From NCBI GenBank assembly GCA_021820785.1, contig JAKADE010000034.1:1-13736 (forward strand): DNA of 13,736 nt. Reading direction: 5' to 3'. The translations under genes and the position numbers were made by a program. Below, piece by piece: positions 1 through 13,736 of the stretch (the stretch's first letter is position 1; each line of letters begins with the position of its first letter). Source of the DNA: Pseudomonadota bacterium. Lineage in GTDB: Bacteria > Pseudomonadota > Gammaproteobacteria > Steroidobacterales > Steroidobacteraceae. A model generated the notes under the pieces. That model saw only the letters and a program-made list of their open reading frames with translations. It was not told the DNA's origin and searched no databases.

Positions 1-1067
1 ATATCGCCAACATGGGATTCGCCGAGGCCATCGACTGCCCCGTGGCGCTGATCGCGGACATCGACCGCGGAGGGGTGTTCGCGCAGCTGGTCGGCACGCT
101 GGCGCTGCTCAGCGAGTCCGAGCGCGCGCGCGTCACCGGCTTCGTGATCAATCGCTTCCGCGGCGATCGGGCACTGCTCGATCCCGGGCTCGAGTGGCTC
201 GAGACGCACAGCGGCAAGCCGGTATTCGGCGTGCTGCCCTACCTCGAGAACCTGCACCTCGATGCCGAGGACGGCATCCGCCGCGAGCCGGACCCACCCG
301 CAACGCAGGCGGCGCGGCTACGCGTGGTCGTACCGGTCACGCCGCGAATCTCCAACCACACCGATTTCGATCCGCTGCGCCAGCACCCGCAGATCGAGTT
401 CCGCTACACCGTGGACCCGCACGATGTGCCCGACGCCGACCTCATCATCCTGCCCGGCTCAAAGTCAGTGCGCGCCGATCTCGCCTGGCTGCGCGAGCGT
501 GGCTGGGGCGAGCGCCTCGCACGACACCTGCGCTACGGCGGCCGGCTGATCGGCATCTGTGGCGGATTGCAGATGCTCGGCGAAACGATCGCCGATCCCC
601 ACGGGATCGAGGGATCGGCGGGCACCAGCCTGGGCTTTGGCTGGCTGGAAATGGACACCACTTTGGAGAGAGAAAAACAGCTGCACAATCTCAGCGGCCG
701 TCTGACGCTGACTGGCGCCGCAGTCCGCGGCTACGAGATCCACATGGGCCGCAGCAGCGGCGCGGCGCTCACTCGGCCCTTGATCGAGCTCGAGGACGGA
801 CGAGCGGACGGGGCCATATCACCGGACGGGCAGGTCCTCGGCACCTATGTGCACGGACTGTTCGAAGAGCCGGACGCGTGCCGCGCACTGCTCGCCTGGG
901 CCGGGCTCGCCGCACCTATTCCGCTCGATCATCGCGAGCGACGTGAGCGTGCGCTCGATACACTCGCGGACGCCGTGGAAAGTTCCCTGCGCCTGAGACA
1001 GTTGCTCCTCGGCATCGAACCGGCGGCCGCAGCACGGAGTGCGCCGGAAAGGGCCACCGCGCGATGA
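1..1067 (+). CDS. cobQ: Cobyric acid synthase (glutamine-hydrolysing), 5'-truncated
   Basis: CobQ amidates four side-chain carboxylates of adenosylcobyrinic acid a,c-diamide, using ATP and ammonia from glutamine, to give adenosylcobyric acid in the cytoplasm. The open frame runs in from the left edge (first whole codon at base 3, reading I-A-N-M-G-F-A-E-A), so the first visible ATG at 12 is internal. About 355 C-terminal residues of a roughly 480-490-residue family are present. Visible marks are the end of the synthetase domain with [13 protein letters not shown], the LPGSKSV segment, and a class I glutamine amidotransferase domain with nucleophile motif [10 protein letters not shown] and the histidine region YEIHMGRS. 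The C-terminal HGLFEEP segment is also present. The stop overlaps the cobU start as ATGA, indicating coupling. The N-terminal P-loop lies outside the window. Identity is very secure from motifs and context. Confidence 0.97.
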
Positions 1068-1585
1068 AGCATCTGATCCTCGGCGGAGTGCGCTCAGGCA
1101 AGAGCCGGCTCGCGGAGCAACGCGCCCGCGCGAGCGCCCGTCAGGTGGTCTATGTGGCCACCGCGATCGATGTGGGCGATGCCGAGATGAATGCGCGGAT
1201 TCGGCAACATCGCGCGCGCCGCCCAGCGGAGTGGATCACGCTCGAAGAGCCGTTCGCCCTCGGCAGCGCGCTGCTCGCCAACGCATCGCCCGAGCGGTGC
1301 CTGCTGGTCGAGTGCCTGACGCTTTGGCTCACGAACCTGTTGTGCGTGAAACCCGAGCAGTTTGACGAGGAGCGTCGCAGTCTCTGTGCCGCTGTTTCGG
1401 ATGTCAGCGGTACGCTCATTCTCGTCGGAAACGAAACCGGCCTTGGGGTCGTGCCGCGTGACGAGCTGTCGCGCCAATTCCTCGACGCCAGCGGTGAACT
1501 GCATCAGACGCTGGCGGCGCTCTGTGATCGCGTCACGCTCACCGTCGCGGGGCTGCCGTTCGAGCTAAAAGGCCAGCCCCAATGA
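1064..1585 (+). CDS. cobU: Bifunctional adenosylcobinamide kinase / adenosylcobinamide-phosphate guanylyltransferase
   Basis: This 173-residue cytoplasmic enzyme (CobU, also called CobP) phosphorylates adenosylcobinamide and then transfers GMP to give adenosylcobinamide-GDP, the substrate of CobS. The P-loop GGVRSGKS sits at residues 7-14. The family block with ATA, then [14 protein letters not shown], places the guanylylated histidine at about H49. Further conserved blocks are [11 protein letters not shown] and [17 protein letters not shown]. Length is normal for the family. The ATG at 1064 overlaps the cobQ stop in ATGA, and the cobU stop is itself embedded in an ATGA that opens a small ORF. 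Neighbouring cobT, cobS and cobC encode the other steps of nucleotide-loop assembly. I see no defects. Confidence 0.97.
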
Positions 1586-1731
1586 GCTCGGTGACTGCCC
1601 GCCGGCCCTTGGAGACTGCGTGCACCCGCGCGGCGATCCCGATGATCATCAACGGCATGCCACGCGCGCGTTCCCTCGGCGCACGCGTCATCCAAGGCAT
1701 GCATTTCACCAGAAAGGTCTATTGGACATGA
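1582..1731 (+). CDS. Candidate 49-aa small ORF coupled between cobU and cobT
   Basis: An ATG at 1582 overlaps the cobU stop (ATGA). The frame runs 49 codons to a TGA at 1729-1731 that overlaps the cobT start (again ATGA). An AAAAGG stretch at 1567-1572, nine bases upstream, could serve as ribosome binding site. Third codon positions are about 80% G/C, as in the flanking genes. The product begins [10 protein letters not shown] and ends FTRKVYWT; it is basic, and I recognise no domain or membrane segment. It exactly fills the only gap in an otherwise overlapping operon. It could be a real small protein, a coupling device that carries ribosomes from cobU to cobT, or a chance open frame. An in-frame upstream extension of cobT also covers part of this stretch, but cobT homology begins only after 1728. 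Confidence 0.4.
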   Translation: MSSVTARRPLETACTRAAIPMIINGMPRARSLGARVIQGMHFTRKVYWT

Positions 1732-2813
1732 GCGATACCCTTCCCTCTTCGCTGCAGGAGACAGTGACGCACATCCGGCCCGCCAAGGAGCGCTTCCGGA
1801 TGGAGGCCAATCAACGCCTGGATCAGCTGACCAAGCCGCCGGGCAGCCTCGGGCAGCTGGAAGCGATCGCCGCGCAGTGCTACGCCATCGCTGAAGGCAG
1901 TTGGTCGGTTCCTCTGCGCAAAGCGGCTTATGTGTTCGCCGCCGACCATGGCGTGACCCAGGAGGGGGTGAGCGCCTATCCGAGTGCCGTCACTGCGCAG
2001 ATGGTCGAGAACTTTCTGCACGGTGGAGCGGCCATCAACGTGCTCGCACGGCTTCATGACGTGCAGCTGACGATCATCGACGTGGGTGTGGACGCGGATT
2101 TCTCCGCTCCCTCCGCATTGTGGCAACGGAAGGTACGGCACGGCAGCCGCAATCTGCGCCTCGAGCCGGCGATGTCGCCACGCGAGCTCGATGATGCGCT
2201 GCAGATCGGTCTGGAGGCCGCCCATGACGCCCACAGCCGCGACGTACGCATGGTGGCTGCCGGAGAGATGGGCATCGGCAATACAACGGCCGCCAGCGCC
2301 CTCGCCGCCGCCCTCACCCGTCAGCCGGTCGAAGCGGTCACGGGCACCGGGACCGGAATCACCTCGAGGGCACGTCAGATCAAGCAGCAGGTGATCGGTG
2401 AGGCACTGGATAGGCATCTTCCCCTATGGCACACGGAGAGGGCCGCACCGCTCGAGGCGTTGCGCTGCGTGGGTGGCCTTGAGATCGCGGCGATGACGGG
2501 CTTTTTTCTCGGGGCCGCGCGCCATCGGAAAATCATTATCGTCGACGGATTCATTGCCACAGCCGCCGCGGCGGTCGCCGTCGCGCTCGCCCCGCCGGTG
2601 CGCGAATATCTGCTTGCCGGCCATCGCTCGCAGGAGCCCGGGCACGCCCATCTGCTCGACTATATCGGCATCAGACCCATTCTGGATCTGCGCATGCGCC
2701 TCGGCGAGGGGACCGGAGCCGTCCTGGCTATGCCGGTCGTCACCTCGGCAATGCACATTCTGACGGAGATGGCGACGTTCGCATCGGCAGGAGTGAGCAC
2801 AGCGAACGAATGA
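1728..2813 (+). CDS. cobT: Nicotinate-nucleotide:dimethylbenzimidazole phosphoribosyltransferase
   Basis: CobT transfers phosphoribose from nicotinate mononucleotide to 5,6-dimethylbenzimidazole (or a related base), giving alpha-ribazole 5'-phosphate for the lower loop of cobalamin. I chose the ATG at 1728 (361 residues, close to the family's roughly 350). AAAGG at 1713-1717 lies ten bases upstream, and the protein then starts with the expected N-terminal helix. The same frame is open back to 1620, but that extension is arginine- and histidine-rich and looks non-native. Motifs in order are TKPPGSLGQLE, FAADHGV, GEMGIGNTTAASAL, the TGTGTG region, VDGFIATAAA, HRSQEPGH, and the catalytic-glutamate segment RLGEGTGA with E at about 327. 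The stop overlaps the cobS start as ATGA. Confidence 0.96.
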   Translation: MSDTLPSSLQETVTHIRPAKERFRMEANQRLDQLTKPPGSLGQLEAIAAQCYAIAEGSWSVPLRKAAYVFAADHGVTQEGVSAYPSAVTAQMVENFLHGGAAINVLARLHDVQLTIIDVGVDADFSAPSALWQRKVRHGSRNLRLEPAMSPRELDDALQIGLEAAHDAHSRDVRMVAAGEMGIGNTTAASALAAALTRQPVEAVTGTGTGITSRARQIKQQVIGEALDRHLPLWHTERAAPLEALRCVGGLEIAAMTGFFLGAARHRKIIIVDGFIATAAAAVAVALAPPVREYLLAGHRSQEPGHAHLLDYIGIRPILDLRMRLGEGTGAVLAMPVVTSAMHILTEMATFASAGVSTANE

Positions 2814-3562
2814 AGCGTCCGGCTCGCAACCTCCTCGGCGCCGTTCAATTTCTCACGCGCATTCCACTGCCCGAGCGGTGGCTCGGTGAGATAGCGCTGG
2901 CTGAGGTCGCGCCGTACTTCCCCCTGGTGGGTGCTTTACTCGGACTCGCAACGGCGGGCATCGACGCCGCTTTGCGTCCGCACCTCAAAGCGATCGCGGC
3001 GGCGGCCGCATCCGTAGCGTTTCTGGTGGTGATCACCGGCGCTCTTCACGAGGACGGACTCGCCGACAGCGCAGACGGCTTCGGTGGCGGAGCAACCGCC
3101 AATCGCGTCCTCGCCATCATGCGTGACAGTCGAATCGGTAGTTACGGCGCGATTGCCGTCGCGCTGTCTCTGTTACTGAGGATTGCATTCATCGCAGCGT
3201 TGCCCGCACAGGATGCACTCGCCTATTTCGTCTCGGCGGAAACGCTCTCGCGCTGGAGCGTGCTGCCGCTCGCGAGTTTTCTGCCCTCCGCCCGTCAGGG
3301 CGGACCGTCCGCGGGACAGGGCGCGAGGCTCGCCCGCAGCATCTCGCCCACGGCCATCGCGCTCGGCACGCTGATCGCCGCCGCGGTTACCGTGGCAAGT
3401 CTGCACGCGGCCAGCTGGCGCCCCTGGGCGGCCTGTCTGCTCGCCACCGCGGCAAGCGGTCTATATTTCAGACGGCGGATAGGCGGCGTGACCGGCGACT
3501 GCTTCGGCGCGGCCATCCAGCTTGTCGGCATTGCCGTTTATCTCTGCGGCGCGTGGCGATGA
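2810..3562 (+). CDS. cobS: Adenosylcobinamide-GDP ribazoletransferase (cobalamin synthase)
   Basis: CobS is an inner-membrane enzyme that joins adenosylcobinamide-GDP to alpha-ribazole (or its phosphate), releasing GMP and producing adenosylcobalamin (phosphate). The 250-residue length is typical. The family start LLGAVQFLTRIPLP is followed by hydrophobic segments near residues 38-52, 62-78, 115-133 and in the C-terminal third. The conserved acidic metal-binding motif HEDGLADSADGFGGG is at residues 80-94, followed by IMRDSRIGSYG. The C-terminal GGVTGDCFGA motif is also present. ATG 2810 overlaps the cobT stop and the cobS stop overlaps the cobC start, both as ATGA. Function and identity are clear. 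Confidence 0.96.
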   Translation: MKRPARNLLGAVQFLTRIPLPERWLGEIALAEVAPYFPLVGALLGLATAGIDAALRPHLKAIAAAAASVAFLVVITGALHEDGLADSADGFGGGATANRVLAIMRDSRIGSYGAIAVALSLLLRIAFIAALPAQDALAYFVSAETLSRWSVLPLASFLPSARQGGPSAGQGARLARSISPTAIALGTLIAAAVTVASLHAASWRPWAACLLATAASGLYFRRRIGGVTGDCFGAAIQLVGIAVYLCGAWR

Positions 3563-4158
3563 GACAACTGATTCTGATCCGCCACCCGGCTACCGGTCTT
3601 GCCGGAACGTTTTGCGGGTACAGCGACCCGGACTTGAGTGCAGCGGGGTTGGCCGAGCTGCATGCCTTGCAGCGAAGACTTGGCCGGGTTCCGCTGGATC
3701 GCCTCCTCAGCAGCGATCTGCTACGCGCCCGCCGCTGCGCCGAGGCACTGGCCGAGGGGCACGGGATCCAGGCGACCCTCAGCCTGGCACTGCGCGAGAT
3801 GCACTTTGGCGATTGGGAAGGGTTGCGGTGGGACGAAATCCAGACCCGCTTCCCGGAGCAGGCACAGCGCTGGCTGCAGGGGTTTGCGACGTTTACACCG
3901 CCCCATGCGGAACCGTACGCGCATTTCACGACGCGCATCAGCAGGCAAGTCGACGAGTGGCTGCGGGACGACTCGTGCACGACGCTCGCAGTCGTGACAC
4001 ACCGGGGCGTGCTGCAGTTCCTGTTGCAGACCTATTGCGGGGTCGACGCTACGGCGGCATGGCACCTGTCATCCTACTACGCGACCGCCCTGTTCTGCGC
4101 GCGAACGGCAGGCGCCGATAACCCATTGGCGGTCCGCGAGACATGGCACCTGGGCTGA
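3559..4158 (+). CDS. cobC: Alpha-ribazole phosphatase-like histidine phosphatase
   Basis: A 199-residue member of the histidine phosphatase superfamily. In this operon it should remove the 5'-phosphate from alpha-ribazole phosphate or from adenosylcobalamin 5'-phosphate. The catalytic histidine is H9 in LILIRHPAT. R58 lies in the SSDLLRARRC segment, the acid candidate E80 in LREMHFGDWEG, and the second histidine H148 in VVTHRGV. The usual RHG triplet reads RHP here, a variation that does not touch the catalytic residues. I prefer ATG 3559, which overlaps the cobS stop as ATGA; a GTG two codons upstream (3553) is possible. Phosphoglycerate-mutase-like relatives share the fold, so the CobC call rests on motifs plus operon position. 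Confidence 0.9.
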   Translation: MRQLILIRHPATGLAGTFCGYSDPDLSAAGLAELHALQRRLGRVPLDRLLSSDLLRARRCAEALAEGHGIQATLSLALREMHFGDWEGLRWDEIQTRFPEQAQRWLQGFATFTPPHAEPYAHFTTRISRQVDEWLRDDSCTTLAVVTHRGVLQFLLQTYCGVDATAAWHLSSYYATALFCARTAGADNPLAVRETWHLG

Positions 4159-5105
4159 TGGATTCACCTCAGCGCACACCGGTCTCGGGAACAGGGTTCG
4201 CCATCGGCCACGCCGGCCGGCATCACGGCGAGATTCTCCAGGGGCTATGGTGGCCGCAATCAGAGGCTTGCCCCAATCCAGTCCCCTGTCTACTCACCCA
4301 GCCAGTGCCCGGCGCTGGAAGTGAAGCGCGTTTCAGGCTAGCACCAGGACGACAGATCGAGGTTCATCCCGCCTACAAGCTGAAAGCGGCGCGCGCGGCC
4401 CGACTGGCACTCGATGCGCTCGATGCCACCGCATTCGGCGGCGTACTCAGGTTGCGCTGCCCCATACCGACTGGGCTCGGACTGGGTTCCTCAACCAGCG
4501 ACGTACTTGCCACCCTCCGGGCAGTATGCCTGGCGTGCGGCACGCAGGCCGACGCCGCCCTGCTCGCCCGGCTTGCGGTCCGCGCTGAGGTCGCTTCCGA
4601 CCCGCTCATGTTCGACGGCACAGTCCTGTTCGCCCACCGTGAGGGTCGTGTCCTCGAGCACTGGGGACAATGGATCCCTGAGTTCCTGTTACTGAGCGTC
4701 AACACTGATCCGCGGACCGCTGGGCGCGATACGTTGAGCCTACCCCGGCCACGCGGCGAAGCTATGCGGAACGATTACACTGCGCTCGTGCAGCAAGCAC
4801 GCGCTGCCTTCCAGGCTCACGATGCAGCTGCAATCGCCGCCGCGGCAACCCGCAGCGCCGAACTCAATCAAATCACCGTGGCCACGCGCGAATTCCACGC
4901 TCTGCGAGCGCTGAGCGTCACCAGCGGCGCGCTTGGCCTGCAGATCTCGCACTCGGGAACGGTCGCAGGGCTGCTGTTCGCTCCGCAGACTGAACCGCAC
5001 ACCTTCAAGCCTCTGCTGAGGCGGCTACGGACGCTTGGGATGGCACCACTTGGAACCTATCGAACCGGACACGATAACTTCCCGGCGCCGCCTGATCGCG
5101 CTTGA
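4158..5105 (+). CDS. pduX: GHMP kinase, PduX/BluE-like L-threonine kinase
   Basis: PduX (BluE in Rhodobacter) makes L-threonine phosphate, which CobD decarboxylates to the aminopropanol phosphate linking corrin ring and nucleotide loop. The 315-residue product resembles PduX in several places: GRHHGEILQG at 20-29 against the family's CGELIQG, the GHMP ATP-binding loop PTGLGLGSSTSD at about 104-115, the SDPLMFDGTVLF region at 148-158, and HSGTVAGLLF near the C-terminus. I chose ATG 4158 because it overlaps the cobC stop as TGATG, like the other junctions; an in-frame ATG at 4143 would overlap by 16 bases. Neither start has a strong ribosome binding site. It is the last gene before a convergent btuB. 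Threonine as substrate is inferred from family and context. Confidence 0.85.
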   Translation: MDSPQRTPVSGTGFAIGHAGRHHGEILQGLWWPQSEACPNPVPCLLTQPVPGAGSEARFRLAPGRQIEVHPAYKLKAARAARLALDALDATAFGGVLRLRCPIPTGLGLGSSTSDVLATLRAVCLACGTQADAALLARLAVRAEVASDPLMFDGTVLFAHREGRVLEHWGQWIPEFLLLSVNTDPRTAGRDTLSLPRPRGEAMRNDYTALVQQARAAFQAHDAAAIAAAATRSAELNQITVATREFHALRALSVTSGALGLQISHSGTVAGLLFAPQTEPHTFKPLLRRLRTLGMAPLGTYRTGHDNFPAPPDRA

Positions 5106-5156
5106 GAGGGGGGTATCCCCGTGGAACAGCCGCGAACCATCGTTCCGCCGCGAAAA

Positions 5157-5193
5157 CCTGCACGCCGATACCGCCCTGGTATCGGCGTGCAGG
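5157..5193 (-). terminator. Perfect 16-bp hairpin between cob operon and btuB, likely minus-strand terminator
   Basis: Bases 5157-5172 and 5178-5193 are perfect reverse complements around a five-base loop. Read on the minus strand the stem is followed by TTTTCG (5156-5151), a short U-run, so it fits an intrinsic terminator for btuB about 150 bases past its stop. On the plus strand the 3' side of the stem is not followed by T's, so it would end cob transcription poorly, though it could protect that mRNA's 3' end. A weaker GGGG-TAT-CCCC hairpin sits at 5110-5120. The remaining 5194-5341 holds no gene that I can support. Confidence 0.6.
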
Positions 5194-5341
5194 CAAGACC
5201 GATGTGCCGGATTTTTCGAGGCTCATCCGTGAAACACACCGCAGGACATCCCGCCTCGGGGCTCAGTATGGATTGTCCGCCACCCTGCCGAAGGAAGGAT
5301 GGATTAACAGCGATGGCTCGAGCATGCCGACGGCTGGCGCT

Positions 5342-7378
5342 TCAGAGTCCAAACGGACTCCACGTCAGTCCCACGAACACCCCGAAGGGCACGGAATTGT
5401 AGCTATAGGCAGTTTCGTACCGCTTATCGAACAGGTTCTCGGCGCGCATGCTCCAGCGAAAGTCTTTACCGATCGGCCCGTCGGCGCTCAGACTGACGGT
5501 GGTGTAGCTGCCGAGGGTCACGGGAATTGCTGTAAATGTAGGCGAGTACGCCACATCCGGCCGTGGCCCGGTGTAATGAATGAGGAAACCGGCTGTTATC
5601 TGCCCAAAATCGTAGTCGAGATTGACGTTAGCCATGCTTCTGGCCAGACGTTGCAACGTCGGATGACCGATCGCGCTCAGCGCGAGTGGCTGCTGCACGG
5701 TCACATTCGCCTCATAGCTCCAGCGCCGCCATGTGCCCCGGGCGGCAAGCTCCACGCCACGCGTACGCGTGCGGGCGATGTTTTGAAACTGTGTCATCCC
5801 GTTCGGCGTCGAGCCAAAGCCCCACATGTCGTTGCCGGTGGTCTGGAACACCGTCAAGCGTACATTGGCTGGAGCCCCGGACCATTGTAGCGCCGCCTGC
5901 ACCGTGTGCGCCGATTCGGGCTTCAAGAGTGGATTAGCCGCCCAGTACGGGTTGCTGTAGTAAAGATAACCGAGCGGCGGCACGTTGAAGGCGCTTGAGT
6001 AGCTGGCGATCGCCTCTAGTCCATGACCCAATTGCCGACCGTAGCCCGCATAGAATGTGTTCTGGGTGCTTGCATATCCTCCGAACTGGTCATGTCGCAC
6101 GTTCAACTGAATTTCATTTCCGGCGAACGCGCCATTGGCACCAAGGAAGACGGCGGTGACATTGCGCGAGACGCTCGGAATGTTGCCCTGCTCGGCGCTC
6201 GTGACCGACTGCTGCTGATGCGTGGCACCGCCGGTTAGCGTCCAATCCTTGGAAAGCCGGACGATATTCCGCCACAGGACATCGAGGTGGGTGGAACGGT
6301 ACACCGCCGGGTAGCTGCCGAGGTTGACGTTTTCGGTGCGTTGACGAGACACACTGAGGCGTGAACTCCAGATCGAAGCGATTCGATTGTCGCTAAATAG
6401 CTGAAAGAGACTTTCCCTCGTGCGCCCTCCCGCGGTTTCGTTGTCGTAGCTGTAGCGCCCGTCGCTCAAGAACGCGCGCGCGCCGAGCCGCTCGTGTTGG
6501 CCAAGATCCTGCACGATAGATCCATTCACCGTCAGGTTGTGGTATCCATCGGACCGGTTCGAGGTGACAAACGTGCTCTGTGCCGGGTTAATCGACGGAA
6601 TGCCGGCGCTCGTATAGCGGCTCACCCCGGCCTGCACGCGTGTGTCGTGAAGCCGACCGCTGGCGTTGGCCGAAACCGTCACCGTGTTGCGGCTTCCCGC
6701 GGTCACGGAGAGGTCCGCCTGAGGTTTATGGCCGCCCTGGCGCGTGGTGATCAGAATGACACCGCCAATCGCACCCGAGCCGTAAATTGCCGATACGTTG
6801 CCGTGAATGACCTCGATGCGCTCAATCTGATCGGTGGTGAGATTCTCAAGATAATCACCGCCACCGGAGGCGTCCTCGGCCGTGATCGGCACGCCATCGA
6901 GCAGGACCAGAACTCCTGCATCAGTGCCACCGAATCCCTCGAGGTAGGTCGTCGCCGTATGCCCAGGCCCGCCGTTCGAGGTGATCTGCACGCCGGCCAC
7001 CCGCTGCAGTAGCGTCGTGAGGTTTTTCACACCGCTCTGCTCGATCTGTATGCGGGTGATCACGCTCACGGTCGGCAACGCCTGCGCCAGGGGCTGCGCA
7101 AAGGTGGCGGCTGAAATGATGACCGTTGAGACGCCGATGGGCCCGTCCGCAGCGCTCGCGGGCGTCGCAATGGTCGCGATGCTCGCGATGATCGCCACCC
7201 ACCATGGAGCCATCCCCACACGGTGTCCGGTAACGGTCCGCGGCCGGGGGCTGGCTCCCCGTGCGTCGCCGCTCACACAACCTGGCCGCGCCCGCACATC
7301 GTGCGAGTTCGTCGCTTCCATCGCCCGCTCGCTGTGTGGGCATCGAGGCAAGTCAGTCGGTCGGGGGATCATTCGCAT
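5342..7378 (-). CDS. btuB: TonB-dependent vitamin B12 receptor (BtuB-like)
   Basis: An outer-membrane TonB-dependent receptor, presumably importing cobalamin or cobinamide. I chose ATG 7378, giving 678 residues, because GGAG at 7386-7389 sits seven bases upstream and leader pairing centres on this ATG. The next useful ATG is 7213 (623 residues, close to E. coli BtuB) but has no good ribosome site. From 7378 the hydrophobic signal core lies at about 59-72 with a likely ASA cleavage near 76, preceded by an unusually long 55-residue arginine-rich tail. Then come a TonB-box-like STVIISA (84-90), a plug domain (about 100-205, with LLQRVAGVQI, LLDGVPI and IERIEVIHGNVSAIYGSGAIGGVI) and a beta-barrel ending LTWSPFGL. 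The cobalamin riboswitch and convergent cob operon support B12 as substrate. The frame is intact. Confidence 0.9.
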   Translation of the reverse strand: MRMIPRPTDLPRCPHSERAMEATNSHDVRARPGCVSGDARGASPRPRTVTGHRVGMAPWWVAIIASIATIATPASAADGPIGVSTVIISAATFAQPLAQALPTVSVITRIQIEQSGVKNLTTLLQRVAGVQITSNGGPGHTATTYLEGFGGTDAGVLVLLDGVPITAEDASGGGDYLENLTTDQIERIEVIHGNVSAIYGSGAIGGVILITTRQGGHKPQADLSVTAGSRNTVTVSANASGRLHDTRVQAGVSRYTSAGIPSINPAQSTFVTSNRSDGYHNLTVNGSIVQDLGQHERLGARAFLSDGRYSYDNETAGGRTRESLFQLFSDNRIASIWSSRLSVSRQRTENVNLGSYPAVYRSTHLDVLWRNIVRLSKDWTLTGGATHQQQSVTSAEQGNIPSVSRNVTAVFLGANGAFAGNEIQLNVRHDQFGGYASTQNTFYAGYGRQLGHGLEAIASYSSAFNVPPLGYLYYSNPYWAANPLLKPESAHTVQAALQWSGAPANVRLTVFQTTGNDMWGFGSTPNGMTQFQNIARTRTRGVELAARGTWRRWSYEANVTVQQPLALSAIGHPTLQRLARSMANVNLDYDFGQITAGFLIHYTGPRPDVAYSPTFTAIPVTLGSYTTVSLSADGPIGKDFRWSMRAENLFDKRYETAYSYNSVPFGVFVGLTWSPFGL

Positions 7379-7553
7379 CGCAGTGCTCCGTTTATGTGCC
7401 CCTTGAGGGGTGTGGTAACGACAGCCGATGCGAACGGCACAGACGCAGATCGCGAATGCAGTGCTCTCGCGCCGCACACGCGTCTGAGATCGGTGGTTGT
7501 GGAATGCTATCCCACGGCCTTCGCATCGGTCTCAATGTCACCGCTGCGAATGA
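7371..7553 (-). promoter_or_regulatory. btuB leader expression platform with alternative pairings around the start codon
   Basis: In the btuB mRNA sense, segment A CCGATGCGAA (7529-7520), segment B TTCGCATCGG (7434-7425) and segment C CGATGCGAA (7380-7372) occur in that order. C contains the AUG at 7378. B can pair with A over ten bases (plus three after a bulged G), or with C over nine bases, hiding the AUG; the two pairings exclude each other. A further segment TCATTCGC (7553-7546) is complementary to GCGAATGA starting inside the AUG region. A small hairpin CCCC-TCAA-GGGG (7410-7399) and another at 7515-7499 lie between. This fits a riboswitch acting on translation initiation. That the pairings work in the cell is inference. 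Confidence 0.55.
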
Positions 7554-7589
7554 CCGCTCCGTGTGGTACGCCCCGCCCACCGGTTGGGT

Positions 7590-7764
7590 GACCGTACTGG
7601 CAGGTCTCCTGGCTCACGGGTCGTGATCCTGCGCCCGGCCTTCCCAGTTTCCCAGTGGCCGTCACGGGCGCGGACTCGCCGCTTACAGTTACGGGGGTAG
7701 CTACGGCATTGACTTGCGTCTCACCGCATTCCCTCTTGCCTCCCCGGCCTCAACCGGGGAACCA
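7590..7764 (-). promoter_or_regulatory. Cobalamin riboswitch (adenosylcobalamin/B12 element)
   Basis: Read on the minus strand, the region carries the conserved order of the cobalamin riboswitch. GGGAA (7733-7729) and GGTG (7725-7722) are followed by CCCCCGTAACTGTAA (ACTGTAA at 7689-7683), CCACTG (7658-7653) and the B12 box AGCCAGGAGACCTGCC (7614-7599). A CCCCGG/CCGGGG hairpin lies at its 5' end. The ends given are approximate. It sits upstream of btuB in the same direction. By family knowledge, bound B12 lowers expression of the downstream gene, so uptake would be repressed when B12 is plentiful. Confidence 0.95.
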
Positions 7765-7777
7765 GCACGCGGAGGAG

Positions 7778-7806
7778 AGTCTGTCCCTAAGTCCGGTCGT
7801 CGTCAA
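7778..7806 (-). promoter_or_regulatory. Possible sigma-70 promoter for the btuB transcript
   Basis: On the minus strand, TTGACG (7806-7801) is a five-of-six match to a -35 box. It is followed after 17 bases by CAGACT (7783-7778), a weak -10 match that keeps the important second A and final T. Transcription would start near 7771, just ahead of the riboswitch's 5' end at about 7764. The position is right but the -10 is poor, so this is tentative. Confidence 0.35.
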
Positions 7807-7842
7807 GAACGTCAGCTCGCAACGAGCGACAGCGAGCCCTAC

Positions 7843-8100
7843 ATGCGCTCGCGCCGTCCACCGGTGTCCGTACGGCTCCCCCGGCCAAGGCGAACGCCAG
7901 GTAGGCAGCCGCTCCTCGCAGCGGAGGCTTGTATTTCGAGCGAAGTTCCAGCACTCGATAAGGCGCTCACTGCGACCTTCTGGGCTGAGAAACTCGAAGA
8001 GCTGGAATACACTCAGGTCAATCAGACGCCGGATCAGATTGCATACTGGAGCGGGAAGTCCGTGTTGACGAAGCGGGGCGGCGAGCCGGCCACCAGCTGA
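7843..8100 (+). CDS. Unrecognised short ORF, divergent from btuB (possible gene or fragment)
   Basis: An ATG at 7843 opens an 85-codon frame ending at 8100; the frame is also open upstream to 7714, but that part overlaps the riboswitch. The first half is arginine- and proline-rich and looks like random high-GC translation. The second half (about 7950-8097) looks like a real soluble protein, with stretches such as FWAEKLEELEYTQVNQT and IAYWSGKSVLTKRGGE and ordinary codon use. GC there is clearly lower than around it. No strong ribosome site is visible (GAG six bases upstream). It might be a small gene or the C-terminal remnant of a broken one. I do not recognise the family. Confidence 0.25.
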   Translation: MRSRRPPVSVRLPRPRRTPGRQPLLAAEACISSEVPALDKALTATFWAEKLEELEYTQVNQTPDQIAYWSGKSVLTKRGGEPATS

Positions 8101-8226
8101 TCGCCGAGTGCCCTGCGACCACTCCTTTGTGTCCCGACCCCACGCGCACTGGAGTTGCGATCACCGGACATGGAACCAGCATGACAGACGCCTGCAGATG
8201 CACCGGCGCTTCCGATATCTATGCCG

Positions 8227-8571
8227 TCAGCGATTGCACCGATCAGACCCTCCACGACTCATGTGCGTCGCCACCGCAGCCGACGTTCTCGCCGCGATCA
8301 ACATGAACGGCGGAAGCGCAGCGCACGACCTCAGCGCCGGACTGGCGGTGATGTTCCTCGCCCCGCAGGCTTCCCCACCGTGCGTTGCAGAGAGCGGCTG
8401 GTGTACCACCGCGGCTTCAGGACCCGGAGCGTCGTGCTGGCGCTCGAGAATGTGTCTCATGGACTCGTGAATTTGGAGTGCCGCGGCTTCATCAAGAGGG
8501 CTGCCGCGGCCGGCCCCCATGGGGGCGCTCGGGCTCAAGGCGTGCGAAGAGCGGCCAAATGGGTGTGCCAT
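8227..8571 (-). CDS. Doubtful ORF behind an FNR-type promoter
   Basis: A 114-codon minus-strand frame starting with ATG 8571 (MAHPFGRSSHAL) and ending at 8227. Its middle (LDEAAALQIHESMRHILERQ) could form a helix, but the rest is low-information alanine, arginine and proline translation and I recognise no family. There is no convincing ribosome binding site. What raises it above a random ORF is the promoter: an FNR box centred 42 bases upstream of the ATG and a TACAGT -10-like hexamer at 8584-8579, placing the transcript start at or next to the ATG. It may be a leaderless gene, a broken remnant of an FNR-controlled gene, or nothing. Confidence 0.2.
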   Translation of the reverse strand: MAHPFGRSSHALSPSAPMGAGRGSPLDEAAALQIHESMRHILERQHDAPGPEAAVVHQPLSATHGGEACGARNITASPALRSCAALPPFMLIAARTSAAVATHMSRGGSDRCNR

Positions 8572-8578
8572 GCTGCGC

Positions 8579-8620
8579 ACTGTAGCGCTCGTCGCCCGCG
8601 CAGGTTTTGATCGCGATCAA
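8579..8620 (-). promoter_or_regulatory. Perfect FNR/Anr box with class II promoter spacing
   Basis: TTGAT-CGCG-ATCAA at 8607-8620 matches the FNR/Anr consensus TTGAT-N4-ATCAA with no mismatch. On the minus strand a TACAGT hexamer (8584-8579, four of six to TATAAT) sits so that the box centre is at about -41.5 relative to a start near 8572, the standard class II activator geometry. No comparable -10 appears in the plus direction. It suggests oxygen-responsive control of whatever is transcribed leftward from here. The site is symmetric and could arise by chance at a low rate. Confidence 0.5.
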
Positions 8621-8664
8621 TCCGCGCGATCAGCGGCATGACGAGCACGTTCCTGCGATCTTCC

Positions 8665-9000
8665 TCAATGCGGACCGAGCCCGACCTCGGCTGGACCTTC
8701 CTCTGGACCTCGACGCTGTTTGAGCCCGCCGGCCGCACCGGCCGGTTGCGCCCGCGTAGGAGCGGTGTCTGCGCCGCACCGGGAAACCGAGCACATGGCC
8801 ACCAATAGCCGATGAAACGCCGCGATCGAATGAGATCGGCCCGCAAGGCGAGCGTCGAACAATGCGGCCGAGCGACCGGTGGTGTGATATCCGGGCAGTG
8901 GCTCGCACTCCAGAAGCAGGACGGAGGATCATCCCGCGAGGCGGGCCGCAAACGAGGCCCCCGCGATCCCGGCTCCAATCACGACGAAATCGAATTTCAG
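8665..9000 (-). pseudogene. Remnant of an FAD-dependent (DAO-type) oxidoreductase gene
   Basis: In one minus-strand frame, FDFVVIGAGIAGASFAARL (dinucleotide-binding GxGxxG fold) is followed by an in-frame TGA at 8931-8929. The same frame then resumes with SSVLLLECEPLPGYHTTGR and SAALF, the expected next block of glycine/D-amino-acid oxidase-like proteins. A single CGA-to-TGA change would explain the stop. No ATG or well-placed start precedes the first block; the nearest codon is CTG at 9000. After SAALF similarity fades, and blocks such as TPLLRGR in another frame suggest frameshifts as well. Family members are about 350-400 residues, so most of the gene is lost. It lies downstream of fabB in the same direction. 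Confidence 0.65.
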
Positions 9001-9213
9001 CGTGACGAGTGTGACGCTATGTCTTCGTACCACGTGCCCCGCAGACGATGGCCGTGTCGATGCGAAGTTCGCATCGATCCCATTCTGCCTGCGCGCCTCG
9101 AGGGGCGCCACCTGCGGGCTGCTCAAGGCGCAGCGCCTCCCCGTCCCCTTGCGCAGGCTCCGCTCACCACCGCCACGGAGACCTGCCCGGCAGACACCCG
9201 GCTGCGGGCTGGT

Positions 9214-9239
9214 GTGCACCGCGTGTTTCTGCGGTGTAC
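9214..9239 (-). terminator. Hairpin just past the fabB stop
   Basis: GTGCACCGC (9214-9222) and GCGGTGTAC (9231-9239) form a nine-pair stem with one G-U pair around an eight-base loop, eight bases beyond the fabB stop on the minus strand. No U-run follows, so it may be a Rho-type or 3'-end-stabilising hairpin rather than a true intrinsic terminator. Confidence 0.35.
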
Positions 9240-9246
9240 CGGCCGG

Positions 9247-10455
9247 TCAAATTTTCTGGAACACCAGGGTCGCATTGGCCCCCCCGAAGCCGAAGCTGTT
9301 GGACATCACAGTCCGCACCTCGACCTCGCGCATCCGCCGCAGAATCGGGAATCCCACCGCCGCCGAGTCGAGCTGATCGATATTCGCGGATGCGACCAGA
9401 AATGCGCCTTTCAGCATCAGCAGGGCGTAGATGGCCTCGTGCACGCCCGCCGCACCAAGCGAATGACCCGATAGCGGCTTGGTCGAGGACAGCGGTGGAA
9501 TACTCTCGCCGAAGACCTCTCGCAACGCATTGAGCTCGACGATGTCGCCGAGGACAGTCGAGGTCCCATGCGTATTGACGTAGTCGATAGGCCCCTCGAC
9601 GGTACCCAGTGCCTGGCGCATGCACCGGACCGCGCCCTCCCCGGAGGGTGCCACCATGTCGGCGCCGTCGGCCGTGGCGCCATAGCCCACCAGCTCGGCG
9701 TAAATCCGTGCGCCGCGCGCTCGTGCGCGCTCGATTTCCTCCAGCACGAGAATACCAGCGCCGCCGGCGATGACGAAGCCGTCGCGCGTGGCGTCATACG
9801 TACGCGATGCTCGAGCGGGCGTGGCGTTGTACGCCGAGGACAGCGCACCCATCCCGTCGAACAACGCCGCGAGCGTCCAGTGCACCTCGTCGCCACCCCC
9901 GGCGAAAACGACATCGTGCTTGCCGAGCTGAATCTGCTCCATGCCGACGCCGATGCAATGCGCACTGGTCGCGCACGCCGAACTCACCGAGAAGCTGAGC
10001 CCCTTGATGCGGTACGAGGTTCCAAGGCAGGCTGCCACGGTGCTGCACATCGCGCGCGGCACACGATAGGGACCGACCCGACGAATGCCCCGGCTGCGCA
10101 GCACGTCGGCGGCCTCGACCTGGTTGGCCGAGGAGCCGCCGCCGGAGCCGGCGATCAGCCCGGTGCGTGGATGAGAAACCTCGGATGGCGCAAGCCCGCT
10201 GTCGATGATCGCTCGCGCCATGGCCACATGGCCGTAGGCCGCGGCGTCGCCCATGAAGCGCCGATCCTTGCGATCGATCAGCGCATCGAGGTCGATCTGC
10301 GGCACGCCCGCGATTTGGCTGCGCAGACCGAATCTCTCAAAATCCGCTACCGGCTGGATGCCGCAGCGGCCGTGGATCAGTGAGTCCGTCACGGTCTCGA
10401 GGTCGCTGCCGAGGCAGGAAACGATCCCCATTCCGGTCACGACGACACGCCTCAT
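9247..10455 (-). CDS. fabB: 3-oxoacyl-[acyl-carrier-protein] synthase I
   Basis: FabB condenses malonyl-ACP with acyl-ACP and is required to elongate the cis-unsaturated intermediates produced by FabA. The 402-residue product carries the Cys-His-His triad of the family: C161 in [15 protein letters not shown]296 in [11 protein letters not shown] and H331 in SGHSLGAAG. These positions are two residues from E. coli FabB C163/H298/H333. The start [16 protein letters not shown] and the end [13 protein letters not shown] are typical. The ATG at 10455 overlaps the fabA stop as ATGA, so the two are coupled. FabF paralogues share the fold, but linkage to fabA and the alignment of triad positions favour FabB. 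Confidence 0.95.
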
Positions 10456-10982
10456 GTGCCGGCCCGCCCGCCCAAGCCGTCCGTCGAGGTGAACAACCCC
10501 ACCCTGAGGCCCTTCGCGGTGTAGATGCGGCGGCCATCGACTCTGAGCTCACCGTCAGCCACCGCCATCACGAGACTACGGACCATCACCCGCTTGATAT
10601 CCACGTGATAACTGACCTGCTTGGAACTCGGCAGCACCTCCCCCGTGAAGCGCACCTCATCGACACCGAGCGCGCGGCCCCGGCCATGATGGCCGTCCCA
10701 GGCGAGAAAGAAGCCGACGAGCTGCCACAGCGCATCCAGCCCAAGGCATCCGGGCATCACCGGATCACCGGGGAAATGGCACTCGAAGAACCACAGATCG
10801 GGGCGAATGTCGAGCTCCGCATCGATCTCACCTTTGCCGTACGCCCCGCCCTCGCTGGCGACATGATTGATGCGGTCGAGCATCAACATATGCCCGGTGG
10901 GCAACCTGGAGCCGAAGCCCTCGAATACGACGCCGCCGTCGAGCTCGGACAAATGATCAAAATGATGGCGGACCGAATTCAC
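10452..10982 (-). CDS. fabA: 3-hydroxydecanoyl-[acyl-carrier-protein] dehydratase/isomerase
   Basis: FabA dehydrates 3-hydroxydecanoyl-ACP and isomerises the trans-2 product to cis-3-decenoyl-ACP, the branch point of oxygen-independent unsaturated fatty acid synthesis. The 176-residue length is typical. The active site segment [20 protein letters not shown] gives H69 and D83, in register with E. coli H70/D84. The GTG start at 10982 is set by a strong AAGGAG seven bases upstream and by the expected N-terminus ([11 protein letters not shown], then [13 protein letters not shown]). It is followed by fabB with an ATGA overlap. The protein is cytoplasmic. A 14-base palindrome lies about 65 bases upstream and may bear on regulation. 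Confidence 0.96.
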
Positions 10983-11404
10983 CGAGGCTCTCCTTCGTTT
11001 GCACCACAGGGCCGGCGATTAGATACCACTTCGGCACGCCCGAAATTGACGCTCGTCAAGGTGATTGGCAGGCCACCGAAAAACCCGACGATTCAAGCAA
11101 TTTGCGCAATCGTTGAGGCATAACCGAAGCTCTCCAATGCGAGGCCCGGTTTTCAATCGAGAAGGGGTCTTCAGCTACGTCACGCCCAGCGCGAGTGCCA
11201 ACCAAGCTGCCCCCGAAGTACGCTTTATCGACTTCCCGCATGACTCAAGAGTTGAGGTTTTGGCACTGATCCGTGCGGCGCTTGGATCAGCCCACCGGAC
11301 TTCCTCCCCGCCGACTGATTTCCCCGAAAACGGCCCCTGATCCTAATCTGCGGGCGACGTACGCGAAGCGATGTTTCCGACTGAGCCGAGCAACGCGGCG
11401 ATGC
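10983..11404. other. fabA upstream region (no supported gene)
   Basis: This 420-base stretch holds the fabA ribosome site, a palindrome at 11046-11059 and an inverted repeat CTGATCC (11266-11272) / GGATCAG (11284-11290) around an 11-base loop. A 61-codon minus-strand frame (11056-11241, start MREVDKAYFGGSL) and a 91-codon plus-strand frame (TTG start at 11065) are open, but neither has a ribosome site or a recognisable family. GC in the middle part is lower than in the neighbouring genes. The fabA promoter is presumably here, but no convincing -35/-10 pair stands out. Confidence 0.5.
11046..11059. promoter_or_regulatory. Palindromic operator-like site upstream of fabA
   Basis: TTGACG-CT-CGTCAA is a perfect 14-base inverted repeat about 64 bases before the fabA GTG. 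It does not match the FabR or FadR consensus sequences I know, nor the PsrA-type GAAAC-N4-GTTTC. On the minus strand its first half reads TTGACG, also a -35-like hexamer, so a bound protein could compete with RNA polymerase. No good -10 is spaced from it, so the promoter reading is weak. The symmetry is seen; the operator role is inferred. Confidence 0.4.
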
Positions 11405-11731
11405 TCATCGCGAACGGCGATCCTTCCAATTGCGCGAGGCTTTGATCTCCTCGCTGAGCTTGCGCAGGTCATCCAGCGAGCGTCTCTTGGGACCCGATGG
11501 ATCGGATTGCCTAGGGACCGTTCGATTGTAGGGATCATGGTTTGGCCCGCCGTCCGGCACCTGCTCATCCTCGCAGCCCAAGTCCGCCCCAATCCTTTTG
11601 AGCTTCTGGGTATCGATCTCACCGTCCAAGCCGTCGGTCTCGCCGTGCCAGTCCCAGCTCGCATTTCCTCGATCATCGAACACCACCCGACCGGATGGCT
11701 TGCCTCGTTTGCGGGGTTTGTGGGTGCTCAT
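11405..11731 (-). CDS. Conserved hypothetical protein (108 aa)
   Basis: A small, very hydrophilic cytoplasmic protein with no signal peptide or membrane segment. It starts MSTHKPRKRGKPSGRVVFDD with a GRVVFDDRGNASWDW block near residues 13-28. It has a DPYNR motif at about 66-70 and ends with a charged helix (SLDDLRKLSEEIKASR). I recall this layout (R-V-V-x-D-D-R-G-N-A-x-W-x-W, then a PYN motif and a lysine/arginine-rich tail) from uncharacterised proteins of beta- and gammaproteobacteria; no function is known to me. AGAGG nine bases upstream of ATG 11731 supports the start. It stands alone between fabA and the cyclic-di-GMP gene, in the same direction as both. Confidence 0.75.
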   Translation of the reverse strand: MSTHKPRKRGKPSGRVVFDDRGNASWDWHGETDGLDGEIDTQKLKRIGADLGCEDEQVPDGGPNHDPYNRTVPRQSDPSGPKRRSLDDLRKLSEEIKASRNWKDRRSR

Positions 11732-12023
11732 GCCAACACGCCTCTGTGATCAGATGACTACGGTTCGTGGCTCAACGGCGCATTAATTGACAGAATGCAT
11801 GAACGACTCGATCCGACCGGTCTCGACTGTCTCTGCGGGCCGAAGTCCGAAGACTCTCGCTGCACACGGGTCATGGGTCTTTCCCCTTCCGCGATTCGCT
11901 GTGCCTGGGTTCCTGGTGTGGGTCGCTCCGATGTTCCGCCCTTCGTCCCGGATCCTCCTGATTCCCCCGAGGCATTTGCCGCCTTCCGAGTGAGGCGAAG
12001 GGTTTGTGGATCTCGCATGGGGG
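11732..12023. other. Intergenic region, no gene supported
   Basis: The region carries the 5' side of the hypothetical gene, including its ribosome site, an AT-rich patch (ATTAATTGACAG with a nearby ATGCAT, 11783-11804) that may hold its promoter, and a small hairpin CGCCT (11980-11984) / AGGCG (11993-11997) past the cyclic-di-GMP gene's stop. No U-run follows that hairpin. Open frames here are short and unsupported. Confidence 0.4.
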
Positions 12024-13736
12024 CTAAATCTCGCGCCTCAACACCGCGCTCCTCTGCGACTCGCGCGCGCTCAACTCGTTCAGCACCTCTTGGAATGCGC
12101 GCGGCTTTTCCACGCCGTACCCTTGCGCGTACTGCACGCCGAGCGCGCGCAATCGCTCGATGATCCTGATGTTCTCGGCGTACTCCGCAACTGTTCCGAT
12201 TCCGAGATCCTGGGCGAGACTCACGATCGCGCGTACCATGGCAACCGACTGGGGGTTGGTGAGAAGGTCGGTGACGAAGCTACCATCGATCTTGATGTGA
12301 TCGACGGGCAGGTTCGTGAGATTTTTCAGGGAATTGGTCCCCGTGCCAAAGTCATCGAGCGCGAAACGGCAGCCCATGGCTCGCAGTTCGCGCACGAACG
12401 TCAGGGCCTTGGTGAGATTCAGCACCGCAATGGTCTCGGTGATCTCAAAGGTGATCAACGAGGGGGCGATTCGCGAGCCGCGAATCAGTCGCTCGACGCG
12501 CTCGAGAAAGGTCGCGTCCGTCAGAGAAGGCCCCGTGATGTTGATCGATAACGAGGTGCTTGCCGCGAGCAGCGCCGAGCGGTGCGGCGCCGCCGCGGCA
12601 AGGGCGTGCTCGACGACCCACAAGTCGAGCGCCGGGGCGAGTTGGCCGCGGTGCGCGGCGGAGAGAAGATCCGCGGGCGCGTGATCCGCATCCCCGGCGC
12701 GCAGCAGCAGCTCGAAGCCCTCCGGATCCCCCCGGCCCTGCAGCGGCATGATCCGCTGCGCAACGAGCGTGAACGCGTCATTGTGGAGCGCTTCCCGGAG
12801 ACTAATCACGGCGATCACGTCGGAGCGGCGGCGGATCATCGAGTCGTCATCGTCCTGATAGATCTCGACGCGCCCCCGCCCGTGGTCCTTGGCGGCGCGA
12901 CAGGCGAGCTGAGCGAGTGCGAGCGCGCTCGGGAACTCGCGGGGGTCGTTAAAGCAGGCGATGCCGCAACTCAAGGACACCGGCTCGTCGCCTGCCGCGG
13001 GGAGCTCGAGCGGCAGCCGTGCCGCGGCGCGCTGGAGCACTCGGGCCAGGTCGGCCGCGGCCCCGGCGTCCACGTTCGGCAGCGCGAGTGCAAATTTGTC
13101 GCTCGAGATGTGTGCCGCCACGGCGTCGGCCGGCAGATGCGGCCCCGCGAGAAGCTGAGCCACACGAACCATGAGGGCGTCTCCGGCATCGAAGCCCTTG
13201 GTGTCATTGACGATGCCCAACCGGTCGATGCCGAGGAAGATGACACTGTGCGGGCCTCGCAGTCTCGCCCGTTCCCAGGAGAGCACCTGGCTGTGCGCGC
13301 TCGAGCGGGTACGCAGGCCGGTCAGGGCATCGAAGTCCGCCTCGAGCCAAGAGGCGATGTAACGGCTCAGATGCTTGGCCAGCGACAGATGTCTGCGGGT
13401 GAATTCGGGCGCATCCGCCGGACGCAGCAGCATCAGTGCACCCGCGGGGCGGCTTGCGTGACTGTGGACGGGCACGGCAAGCACCCGCACGGCCACCGCC
13501 GCGCCCCGGGCCGCAGCACCCCTATTCCAGGCCGTCGTCTTATTGACCACCAGGGGTCGATGCTTGTTTTGAACCCAGCTGAGGACCGGGGCGGCGAGAT
13601 GACGGAGCGCATCCTCGGCGCCATCGGCGGCCTCAGCGGTGCGGACAATCCGCAGCGGCCCCTGCGGCACCACGAGCGCGCCCAACGCGCAGTCCAGATG
13701 CGCCACCGAGGCGCCCACCAACTCCGCCAGTCGCTC
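12024..13736 (-). CDS. GAF-GGDEF-EAL protein, probable cyclic-di-GMP phosphodiesterase, N-terminus cut by window edge
   Basis: The frame enters from the right edge (E-R-L-A-E-L-V-G-A-S at 13736-13707), so the TTG at 13721 is not the true start. About 570 residues are visible. First comes a GAF-like sensor domain (roughly the first 125 residues), then a GGDEF domain opening with FDALTGLRTR. Its signature reads SSDKF (13106-13092) instead of GGDEF, so cyclase activity is unlikely. The EAL domain follows, with EAL itself as ELL (GFELLLR). The catalytic set is kept: N in SINIT, E in FEITET, DDFGTG, K in HIKIDGSF, E in AEYAEN and Q in AQGYG. It therefore probably hydrolyses cyclic-di-GMP, with GAF and degenerate GGDEF as regulators. 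The signal sensed is unknown. Confidence 0.9.
   Translation of the reverse strand, partial: ERLAELVGASVAHLDCALGALVVPQGPLRIVRTAEAADGAEDALRHLAAPVLSWVQNKHRPLVVNKTTAWNRGAAARGAAVAVRVLAVPVHSHASRPAGALMLLRPADAPEFTRRHLSLAKHLSRYIASWLEADFDALTGLRTRSSAHSQVLSWERARLRGPHSVIFLGIDRLGIVNDTKGFDAGDALMVRVAQLLAGPHLPADAVAAHISSDKFALALPNVDAGAAADLARVLQRAAARLPLELPAAGDEPVSLSCGIACFNDPREFPSALALAQLACRAAKDHGRGRVEIYQDDDDSMIRRRSDVIAVISLREALHNDAFTLVAQRIMPLQGRGDPEGFELLLRAGDADHAPADLLSAAHRGQLAPALDLWVVEHALAAAAPHRSALLAASTSLSINITGPSLTDATFLERVERLIRGSRIAPSLITFEITETIAVLNLTKALTFVRELRAMGCRFALDDFGTGTNSLKNLTNLPVDHIKIDGSFVTDLLTNPQSVAMVRAIVSLAQDLGIGTVAEYAENIRIIERLRALGVQYAQGYGVEKPRAFQEVLNELSARESQRSAVLRREI

Follow-up and report, generated by a model that had tools for sequence, protein, structure and literature searches.

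Probable expression platform of a cobalamin riboswitch, with an additional pairing layer, in the btuB leader of a Steroidobacteraceae genome

For B12 riboswitches, a scheme of translation initiation region (TIR), anti-TIR and anti-anti-TIR has been published for metE of Mycobacterium tuberculosis (PMC11260477) and for btuB of Escherichia coli (PMC11162775), and a generic statement on sequestors and antisequestors is given in PMC2258182 (all published systems are quoted here from excerpts of the respective articles). In the M. tuberculosis metE switch, the anti-TIR occludes the TIR in the bound state and pairs with the anti-anti-TIR in the free state; the bound-state hairpin that holds the anti-anti-TIR itself bears the loop pairing with L5, in an L5-L13 kissing loop. 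The E. coli btuB switch acts on translation and combines P13 and a pseudoknot with a P14 hairpin that governs access to the Shine-Dalgarno (SD) sequence, an anti-SD/anti-anti-SD helix making the ON state. In the corrinoid riboswitch of P. megaterium metE (PMC10653944), the kissing loop holds P13 and mutually exclusive pairings relay the signal; the transmission from kissing loops to B12 expression platforms is described in the same article as diverse and incompletely known. Here we compare with these systems the leader of a gene for a TonB-dependent vitamin B12 receptor, btuB, on the minus strand of a 13,736-nucleotide (nt) stretch from a bacterium of the Steroidobacteraceae (assembly GCA_021820785.1, contig JAKADE010000034.1, positions 1 to 13,736), hereafter called the window.

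The leader resembles M. tuberculosis metE in that one strand, B, may pair either with the start region, C, or with an antisequestor, A, which a further strand, D, can hold in a hairpin, and in the matching loops L5 and L13. Apart from gene and organism, it differs in the placement of these parts: L13 lies in P13 and A in the hairpin that follows (Table 1), and the metE-type arrangement, with the antisequestor in the L13 hairpin, is not found. With E. coli btuB it shares all the elements listed above, but that switch is described as sequestering the SD, whereas here SD and AUG are both covered and an extra conserved hairpin guards A (compared by description). The P. megaterium switch, unlike the present one, is transcriptional, and its antiterminator strand is part of the P13 3' strand. 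Sequestration of an AUG is not new, since the ribosome-binding site and the start codon of the E. coli thiC thiamine pyrophosphate riboswitch are both sequestered in the bound state (PMC5234074), there behind another aptamer and with an anti-P1 stem as the alternative; pausing near the start has been reported for several switches including btuB in the same article.

We read the leader as the expression platform of a class-I-like cobalamin riboswitch controlling btuB translation from the AUG at 7378, OFF with B12 and ON without it, and give this reading a probability of roughly 0.7. With B12 bound, L5 would kiss L13 and P13 would be held; D would retain A in the D:A hairpin, leaving B free for C, and SD and AUG would be buried. 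With B12 absent, A would pair with B, the B:C hairpin would be blocked, and SD and AUG would be released. As long as the kissing loop is unmade, a linker strand between P1 and P13, L, might pair with D and thereby couple P13 to the D:A hairpin. Sequence and comparison establish the aptamer, the L5/L13 match and P13, the three complementarities D:A, A:B and B:C with their conservation across the 22 leaders, and also the start codon; the mutual exclusion of A:B and B:C and the two accessibilities of SD and AUG are predictions of energy models. The argument that the ligand would favour OFF draws on the sign known for btuB switches and on the presumed geometry of the kissing loop; the energy models do not reproduce such an effect.

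The comparison drew on 58 genomes of the genus, 55 of which had matches to the cobalamin riboswitch family RF00174, and 128 loci entered it. By motif, 24 of these leaders are of the present platform type, the remaining 104 being other cobalamin leaders of the genus. One leader (L008), whose contig stops before B and C, was excluded from folding, leaving 23 folded leaders; the alignment further omits L028, identical in leader sequence to L027, and so holds 22. Conservation, covariation, start-codon, forced-state and shortened-chain results refer to these 22 leaders. Covariance models were built for P13 with the D:A hairpin (R1) and for the sequestor (R2; 18 pairs, 21 distinct rows).

The aptamer matches RF00174 over its full length (model positions 1-189; cmscan), and a linker of 10 nt separates it from P13. 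All seven P13 pairs are standard in each of the 22 leaders, and its 5' strand is invariant at all seven positions. L5 (CCCCG, 7696-7692) is complementary to L13 (CGGGG, 7575-7571), whose columns are invariant; CCCCCG stands in L5 of 17 of the 18 leaders of an earlier alignment, the exception being L030 (G028:C250), a degenerate paralogue with altered L5, A:B mismatches and a stop at btuB codon 289. The genome of L030 has a second copy, L013, without a stop in the available sequence. We assigned P13 and L13 to CCCCG/CGGGG because this fits the published C-rich L5 with an L13 partner. Two other arrangements were rejected: the D:A hairpin as P13, with its loop CAUUGA kissing UCAAUG in L5, where the loop is kept in relatives while its supposed partner changes, and an outer stem of CACGG (7563-7559) with CCGUG (7517-7513), whose pairing probability was at most 0.02 in the 23 folded leaders. 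The platform would belong to a class-I-like cobalamin riboswitch with putative corrinoid binding. A kissing loop and a ribosome-site sequestor had been treated as alternatives in the preliminary description; both are present here, as the L5/L13 match and the sequestor.

Strands A, B and C, together with a fourth segment, TCATTCGC (7553-7546), and its counterpart GCGAATGA (7376-7369), lie on the minus strand exactly where they had been described, B being placed 85 nt downstream of A. The A:B repeat alone is weak evidence, because a perfect inverted repeat of at least 10 occurred in 79 of 2000 dinucleotide-preserving shuffles of the 234-nt platform. The ordered triple of a word, its reverse complement and the word again exceeds chance, at about 0.2% or less: triples of 8-mers were found in 2 and of 9-mers in none of the 2000 shuffles, and among 5533 overlapping 234-nt genomic segments, almost exclusively of the same genus and cleared of segments bearing the motifs of this leader, in 34 (8-mers) and 11 (9-mers). 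That C covers a start codon is a post hoc observation to which no separate probability attaches. Triples of 8-mers occur in 6 of the 24 platform leaders versus 2 of the 104 others, and 13 of the 24 are recorded with an exact 7-mer triple, CGATGCG/CGCATCG/CGATGCG. The ten-base word reused at the AUG, which had been proposed as a distinctive variant, is real as a triple with a conserved core, but in full it is particular to this window; the portions conserved in the 22 leaders, with few exceptions in A and C, are only 6-8 nt long (CCGATGCG in A, CGCATCGG in B, GATGCG in C). Nor is the three-word pattern distinctive in itself: since B is the partner of A as well as of C, word, complement and word are expected in any sequestor/antisequestor switch sharing one strand. 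The pattern is a general signature of such switches, and its logic is already in the literature on btuB of E. coli and metE of M. tuberculosis.

B:C extends into GCU:AGC and UCGUU:AACGG, which places the SD (7389-7386) and the AUG in one hairpin. What had been proposed as a start-codon sequestor hence buries the SD GGAG too. In the 18-pair family model of the sequestor, 96.6% of cells are paired. When B:C was forced in the window, the predicted unpaired probability was 0.08 for the SD and 0.00 for the AUG, in line with the proposal that B:C closes the start; with A:B forced it was 0.49 and 0.38, respectively. Medians over the 22 leaders were similar (B:C forced, SD 0.11 and AUG 0.00; A:B forced, SD 0.52 and AUG 0.38), and in the window the two forced states lie 1.2 kcal/mol apart. 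The proposal that A:B frees the start stands in part: SD and AUG are opened relative to B:C, but D can recapture bases from the G of the AUG onward (medians SD 0.51, AUG 0.33). No terminator-like site was found in 7100-8150 when intrinsic terminators were looked for. With the aptamer match and the exclusiveness of A:B and B:C in the energy models, the leader is well described as an expression platform with sequestor and antisequestor behind a cobalamin riboswitch, as had been suggested.

The B core (7432-7425) is invariant at all eight positions and the A core at five of eight (mean identity 0.97), and positions 7390-7384 of the SD region have a mean identity of 0.94. Each of the 8 pairs of the A:B core is standard in 21-22 of the 22 leaders, and each of the 7 pairs of the B:C core in 20-22. 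Two flanking pairs of A:B vary in a compensating manner (GU/AU/CG and AU/GU/GC), and the covariation score of A:B with D:C was reached by 7 of 500 shuffles; such counts are not probabilities where sequences are related. Covariation of A, B and C among relatives, proposed as a check, is confined to these two A:B flanks, with none in the B:C core; as the cores are nearly invariant, the check weighs neither for nor against the pairings. The cores might be kept for another reason, for instance as the site of a protein or small RNA or through recent shared ancestry, with the pairings incidental. Nearly invariant cores of 7-8 nt that lack compensatory change, in leaders all from one genus, would fit this explanation; yet the A-B spacer has diverged (3 of 62 positions invariant, mean identity 0.67), three separate cores stay complementary, the R1 and R2 modules occur together and the A:B flanks compensate. 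We therefore regard incidental pairing as unlikely.

Several results weigh against an OFF switch of the kind outlined above. The OFF structure showed no covariation (its score was reached by 147 of 500 shuffles), nor did the sequestor alone (500 of 500); compensation is absent from the cores because they hardly vary. The models prefer A:B with D:C over D:A with B:C by a median of 3.8 kcal/mol (4.9 as the difference of medians), 7 of the 22 leaders having the opposite preference. Folding with and without a bound-like constraint had been proposed as a check, and in these secondary-structure models forcing P13 gives no shift to the sequestor: over the 23 folded leaders, mean A:B was 0.55 in the free and 0.44 in the bound-like state, with B:C at 0.28 in both, and in the window A:B went from 0.76 to 0.81. 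In chains ending at 7425, forced P13 raised A:B from 0.74 to 0.94, contrary to repression, and in the chain ending at 7366, P13 forced together with a single-stranded linker gave 0.74 versus 0.55 for A:B and 0.09 versus 0.24 for B:C, likewise contrary to repression. Finally, the relatives all come from one genus, include several paralogues within one genome, and count the degenerate L030 among them.

The behaviour of the chains ending at 7425 would be expected of an activating switch, in which ligand-stabilised P13 frees L for D, A is released to B, the start is opened and B12 turns btuB on: with P13 forced and L13 single-stranded, the mean of L:D there rose from 0.71 to 0.94 along with A:B. 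One such case is published, the A. halodurans cobT corrinoid riboswitch (PMC10653944), but it is described there as the first known activating one, and the E. coli btuB switch studied is repressing (PMC11162775). Moreover, kissing-loop geometry is absent from the models, and L:D may be incompatible with a linker stretched so that L13 meets L5; forcing P13 had no mean effect on the chain that ends at 7366 (A:B 0.55 and SD 0.38 in both states). Activation by B12 appears improbable to us, and repression by B12 remains the reading we prefer.

Strands D and L, the fourth and fifth, set the leader apart. D is conserved beyond what pairing with A needs. In the lower part of the D:A hairpin 92.5% of cells are paired, with a predicted mean of 0.94 once A is transcribed. 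In the loop after D, GAC is kept in 22 of 22 leaders, and the other positions vary (1 of 6 invariant). The complementarity of L to the 3' continuation of D is paired in 99.2% of cells, with a single double change from A-U to G-C, in L030, which weighs little because L030 is a degenerate paralogue. An exact GTCACC near the 3' end of the aptamer, followed within 100 nt by GGTGAC, occurs in 23 of the 24 platform leaders versus none of the 104 others; the exception, L030, has neither exact word, and GTCACC without that partner is seen in 4 of the 104. When any 6-mer of the aptamer's 3'-terminal 14 nt with its complement 20-60 nt further on was counted, the figures were 23 of 24 versus 9 of 104. 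The 23 leaders are related and represent fewer than 23 independent cases.

In folds of shortened chains (equilibrium folds as opposed to kinetics; means of 22 leaders), L:D reached 0.91 at 7530, D:A 0.94 at 7515, and A:B 0.84 with L:D 0.59 at 7415; at 7372, D:A was 0.62, B:C 0.46 and A:B 0.28. Making the linker single-stranded lowered A:B at 7425 from 0.74 to 0.17, or to 0.50 when P13 was forced as well (P13 alone, 0.94). The ability of L to pair with D suggests a relay of five strands, L-D-A-B-C, in which neighbours compete: L:D with A:B would open the start and D:A with B:C would close it, the aptamer signalling through single-stranded L instead of the P13 strand and co-transcriptional folding passing the choice down. 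We put this relay forward tentatively, as a possibility with the odds against it; it could be activating if the kissing loop frees L. Word-matching searches of the open-licence literature found no description of an antisequestor outside the L13 hairpin or of a linker relay.

The fourth segment had been suggested to pair at the AUG. The D:C complementarity exists, but D mainly pairs with A, and a mismatch at 7550:7372 breaks the helix in 12 of the 22 leaders, so that D:C was rejected as a conserved lock. One could still take D:C as a regulatory lock of the start codon with A:B as its companion, making A:B with D:C the OFF state: D:C reached at least 0.5 in unconstrained folds of 13 of the 23 leaders, and the median energy of D:C with A:B is 0.2 kcal/mol above that of the ensemble. 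Core D:C complementarity, however, follows automatically from D:A, A:B and B:C, and in addition to the break in the helix the SD is more open than under B:C (median 0.51 versus 0.11), which makes such a lock highly improbable.

The start of btuB at 7378 had been preferred over 7213, and the comparison bears this out. All 22 leaders retain the ATG at the corresponding position, and in 21 of them the reading frame from it meets no stop through the plug region and up to the end of the available sequence, L030 being the exception; some relatives (e.g. L010, L011 and L051) lack the methionine at 7213, which was rejected as the start. In L017 and L029, a common VVISAATF stretch before the plug starts within about 45 residues of the ATG, so that there is scarcely space for an alternative start. 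Across codons 4-55, that is between 7378 and 7213, substitutions over all pairs of nine leaders numbered 708, 749 and 830 by codon position, and since they are nearly even the stretch is weakly constrained as protein. The N-terminal stretch ahead of the signal-like segment varies in length among relatives. The best NCBIfam match of the protein is TIGR01779 (TonB-B12), at 326.7 bits below the equivalog cut-off of 599.7.

R1 gave 24 matches in 17 of the 58 genomes of the genus, and R2, run in the genus only, 23 matches in the same 17; the sole R1 match without R2 (G014:C164) runs off a contig end. Under stricter filters, by which weak matches may be lost, R1 matched 9 of 296 genomes of the order (68 genera), all of them in the genus, and one of 369 genomes in a sample of the class (272 genera), the source genome itself. 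The close named BtuB relatives (53-80% identity) belong to metagenome-assembled Proteobacteria and Gammaproteobacteria. The source genome has five RF00174 matches in total, and a second leader of the same type (L029, G000:C28:2741-3006) stands ahead of another receptor gene. Another platform type of the genus (L162, L166, L169 and similar) resembles, by eye, a classical SD sequestor, with AGCTTCTGA set against a later AGGAGCT, together with an antisequestor overlapping P13 on its 3' strand.

Table 1. Features of the btuB leader and gene in the window.
Feature	Position	Strand	Sequence or pairing	Basis or remark
Cobalamin riboswitch aptamer (RF00174)	7582..7781	minus		cmscan 110.3 bits vs gathering score 31.5, E 2e-27
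Linker L, between P1 and P13	7587..7592	minus	GUCACC	complementary to GGUGAC 7542-7537
P13 hairpin	7559..7583	minus	CCGGUGG / CCAC-A-CGG, loop GCGGGGCGUA holding L13 CGGGG	sequence and 22-leader alignment
D:A hairpin	7515..7556	minus	CGGUC-a-UUCGCA-g-CGGU, loop GACAUUGAG, ACCG-a-UGCGAA-GGCCG	sequence; would hide antisequestor strand A
Strand D (includes 7553-7546)	7545..7556	minus		10/12 positions invariant; complementary to A, less conservedly to C; 3' continuation 7542-7537 complementary to L
Strand A, antisequestor (anti-anti-TIR)	7520..7529	minus	CCGATGCGAA	sequence; A:B core 8 pairs
Strand B, anti-TIR, partner of A or C	7425..7434	minus	TTCGCATCGG	sequence; invariant core
Sequestor hairpin	7370..7436	minus	7436-7426:7370-7380, GCU 7425-7423:7385-7387, UCGUU 7421-7417:7388-7392, CCCC 7410-7407:GGGG 7402-7399	folds
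Shine-Dalgarno, within sequestor	7386..7389	minus	GGAG	sequence
Strand C, with btuB AUG (7378-7376) and codon 2	7372..7380	minus	CGATGCGAA	sequence
btuB, TonB-dependent vitamin B12 receptor	5342..7378	minus	678 amino acids from AUG at 7378	Pfam Plug and TonB barrel above cut-off

Convergent with btuB, positions 12-5105 of the plus strand carry cobQ (cobyric acid synthase) and genes for CobU, a DBI phosphoribosyltransferase (CobT-like), CobS, a histidine phosphatase and a GHMP kinase. Adjacent genes for a ketoacyl synthase and a FabA-like dehydratase at 9247-10982 of the minus strand are unrelated to the riboswitch. In the genome set used for comparison, the window maps to 2811-16546 of contig G000:C685, which conflicts with a listed length of 11257 for that contig.

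Together, these data partly support the preliminary description, the three repeated words proving less distinctive than proposed and the greater interest lying in D and L. The platform is real and conserved, and probably functional; its kind is familiar, and the extra layer has so far turned up in a single genus. Since P13 is separate from the antisequestor hairpin, the leader may provide a clean natural system in which to identify the transmitter of the kissing-loop signal, and the genus, in which the start of btuB is fixed, provides 24 natural variants of the platform for testing.

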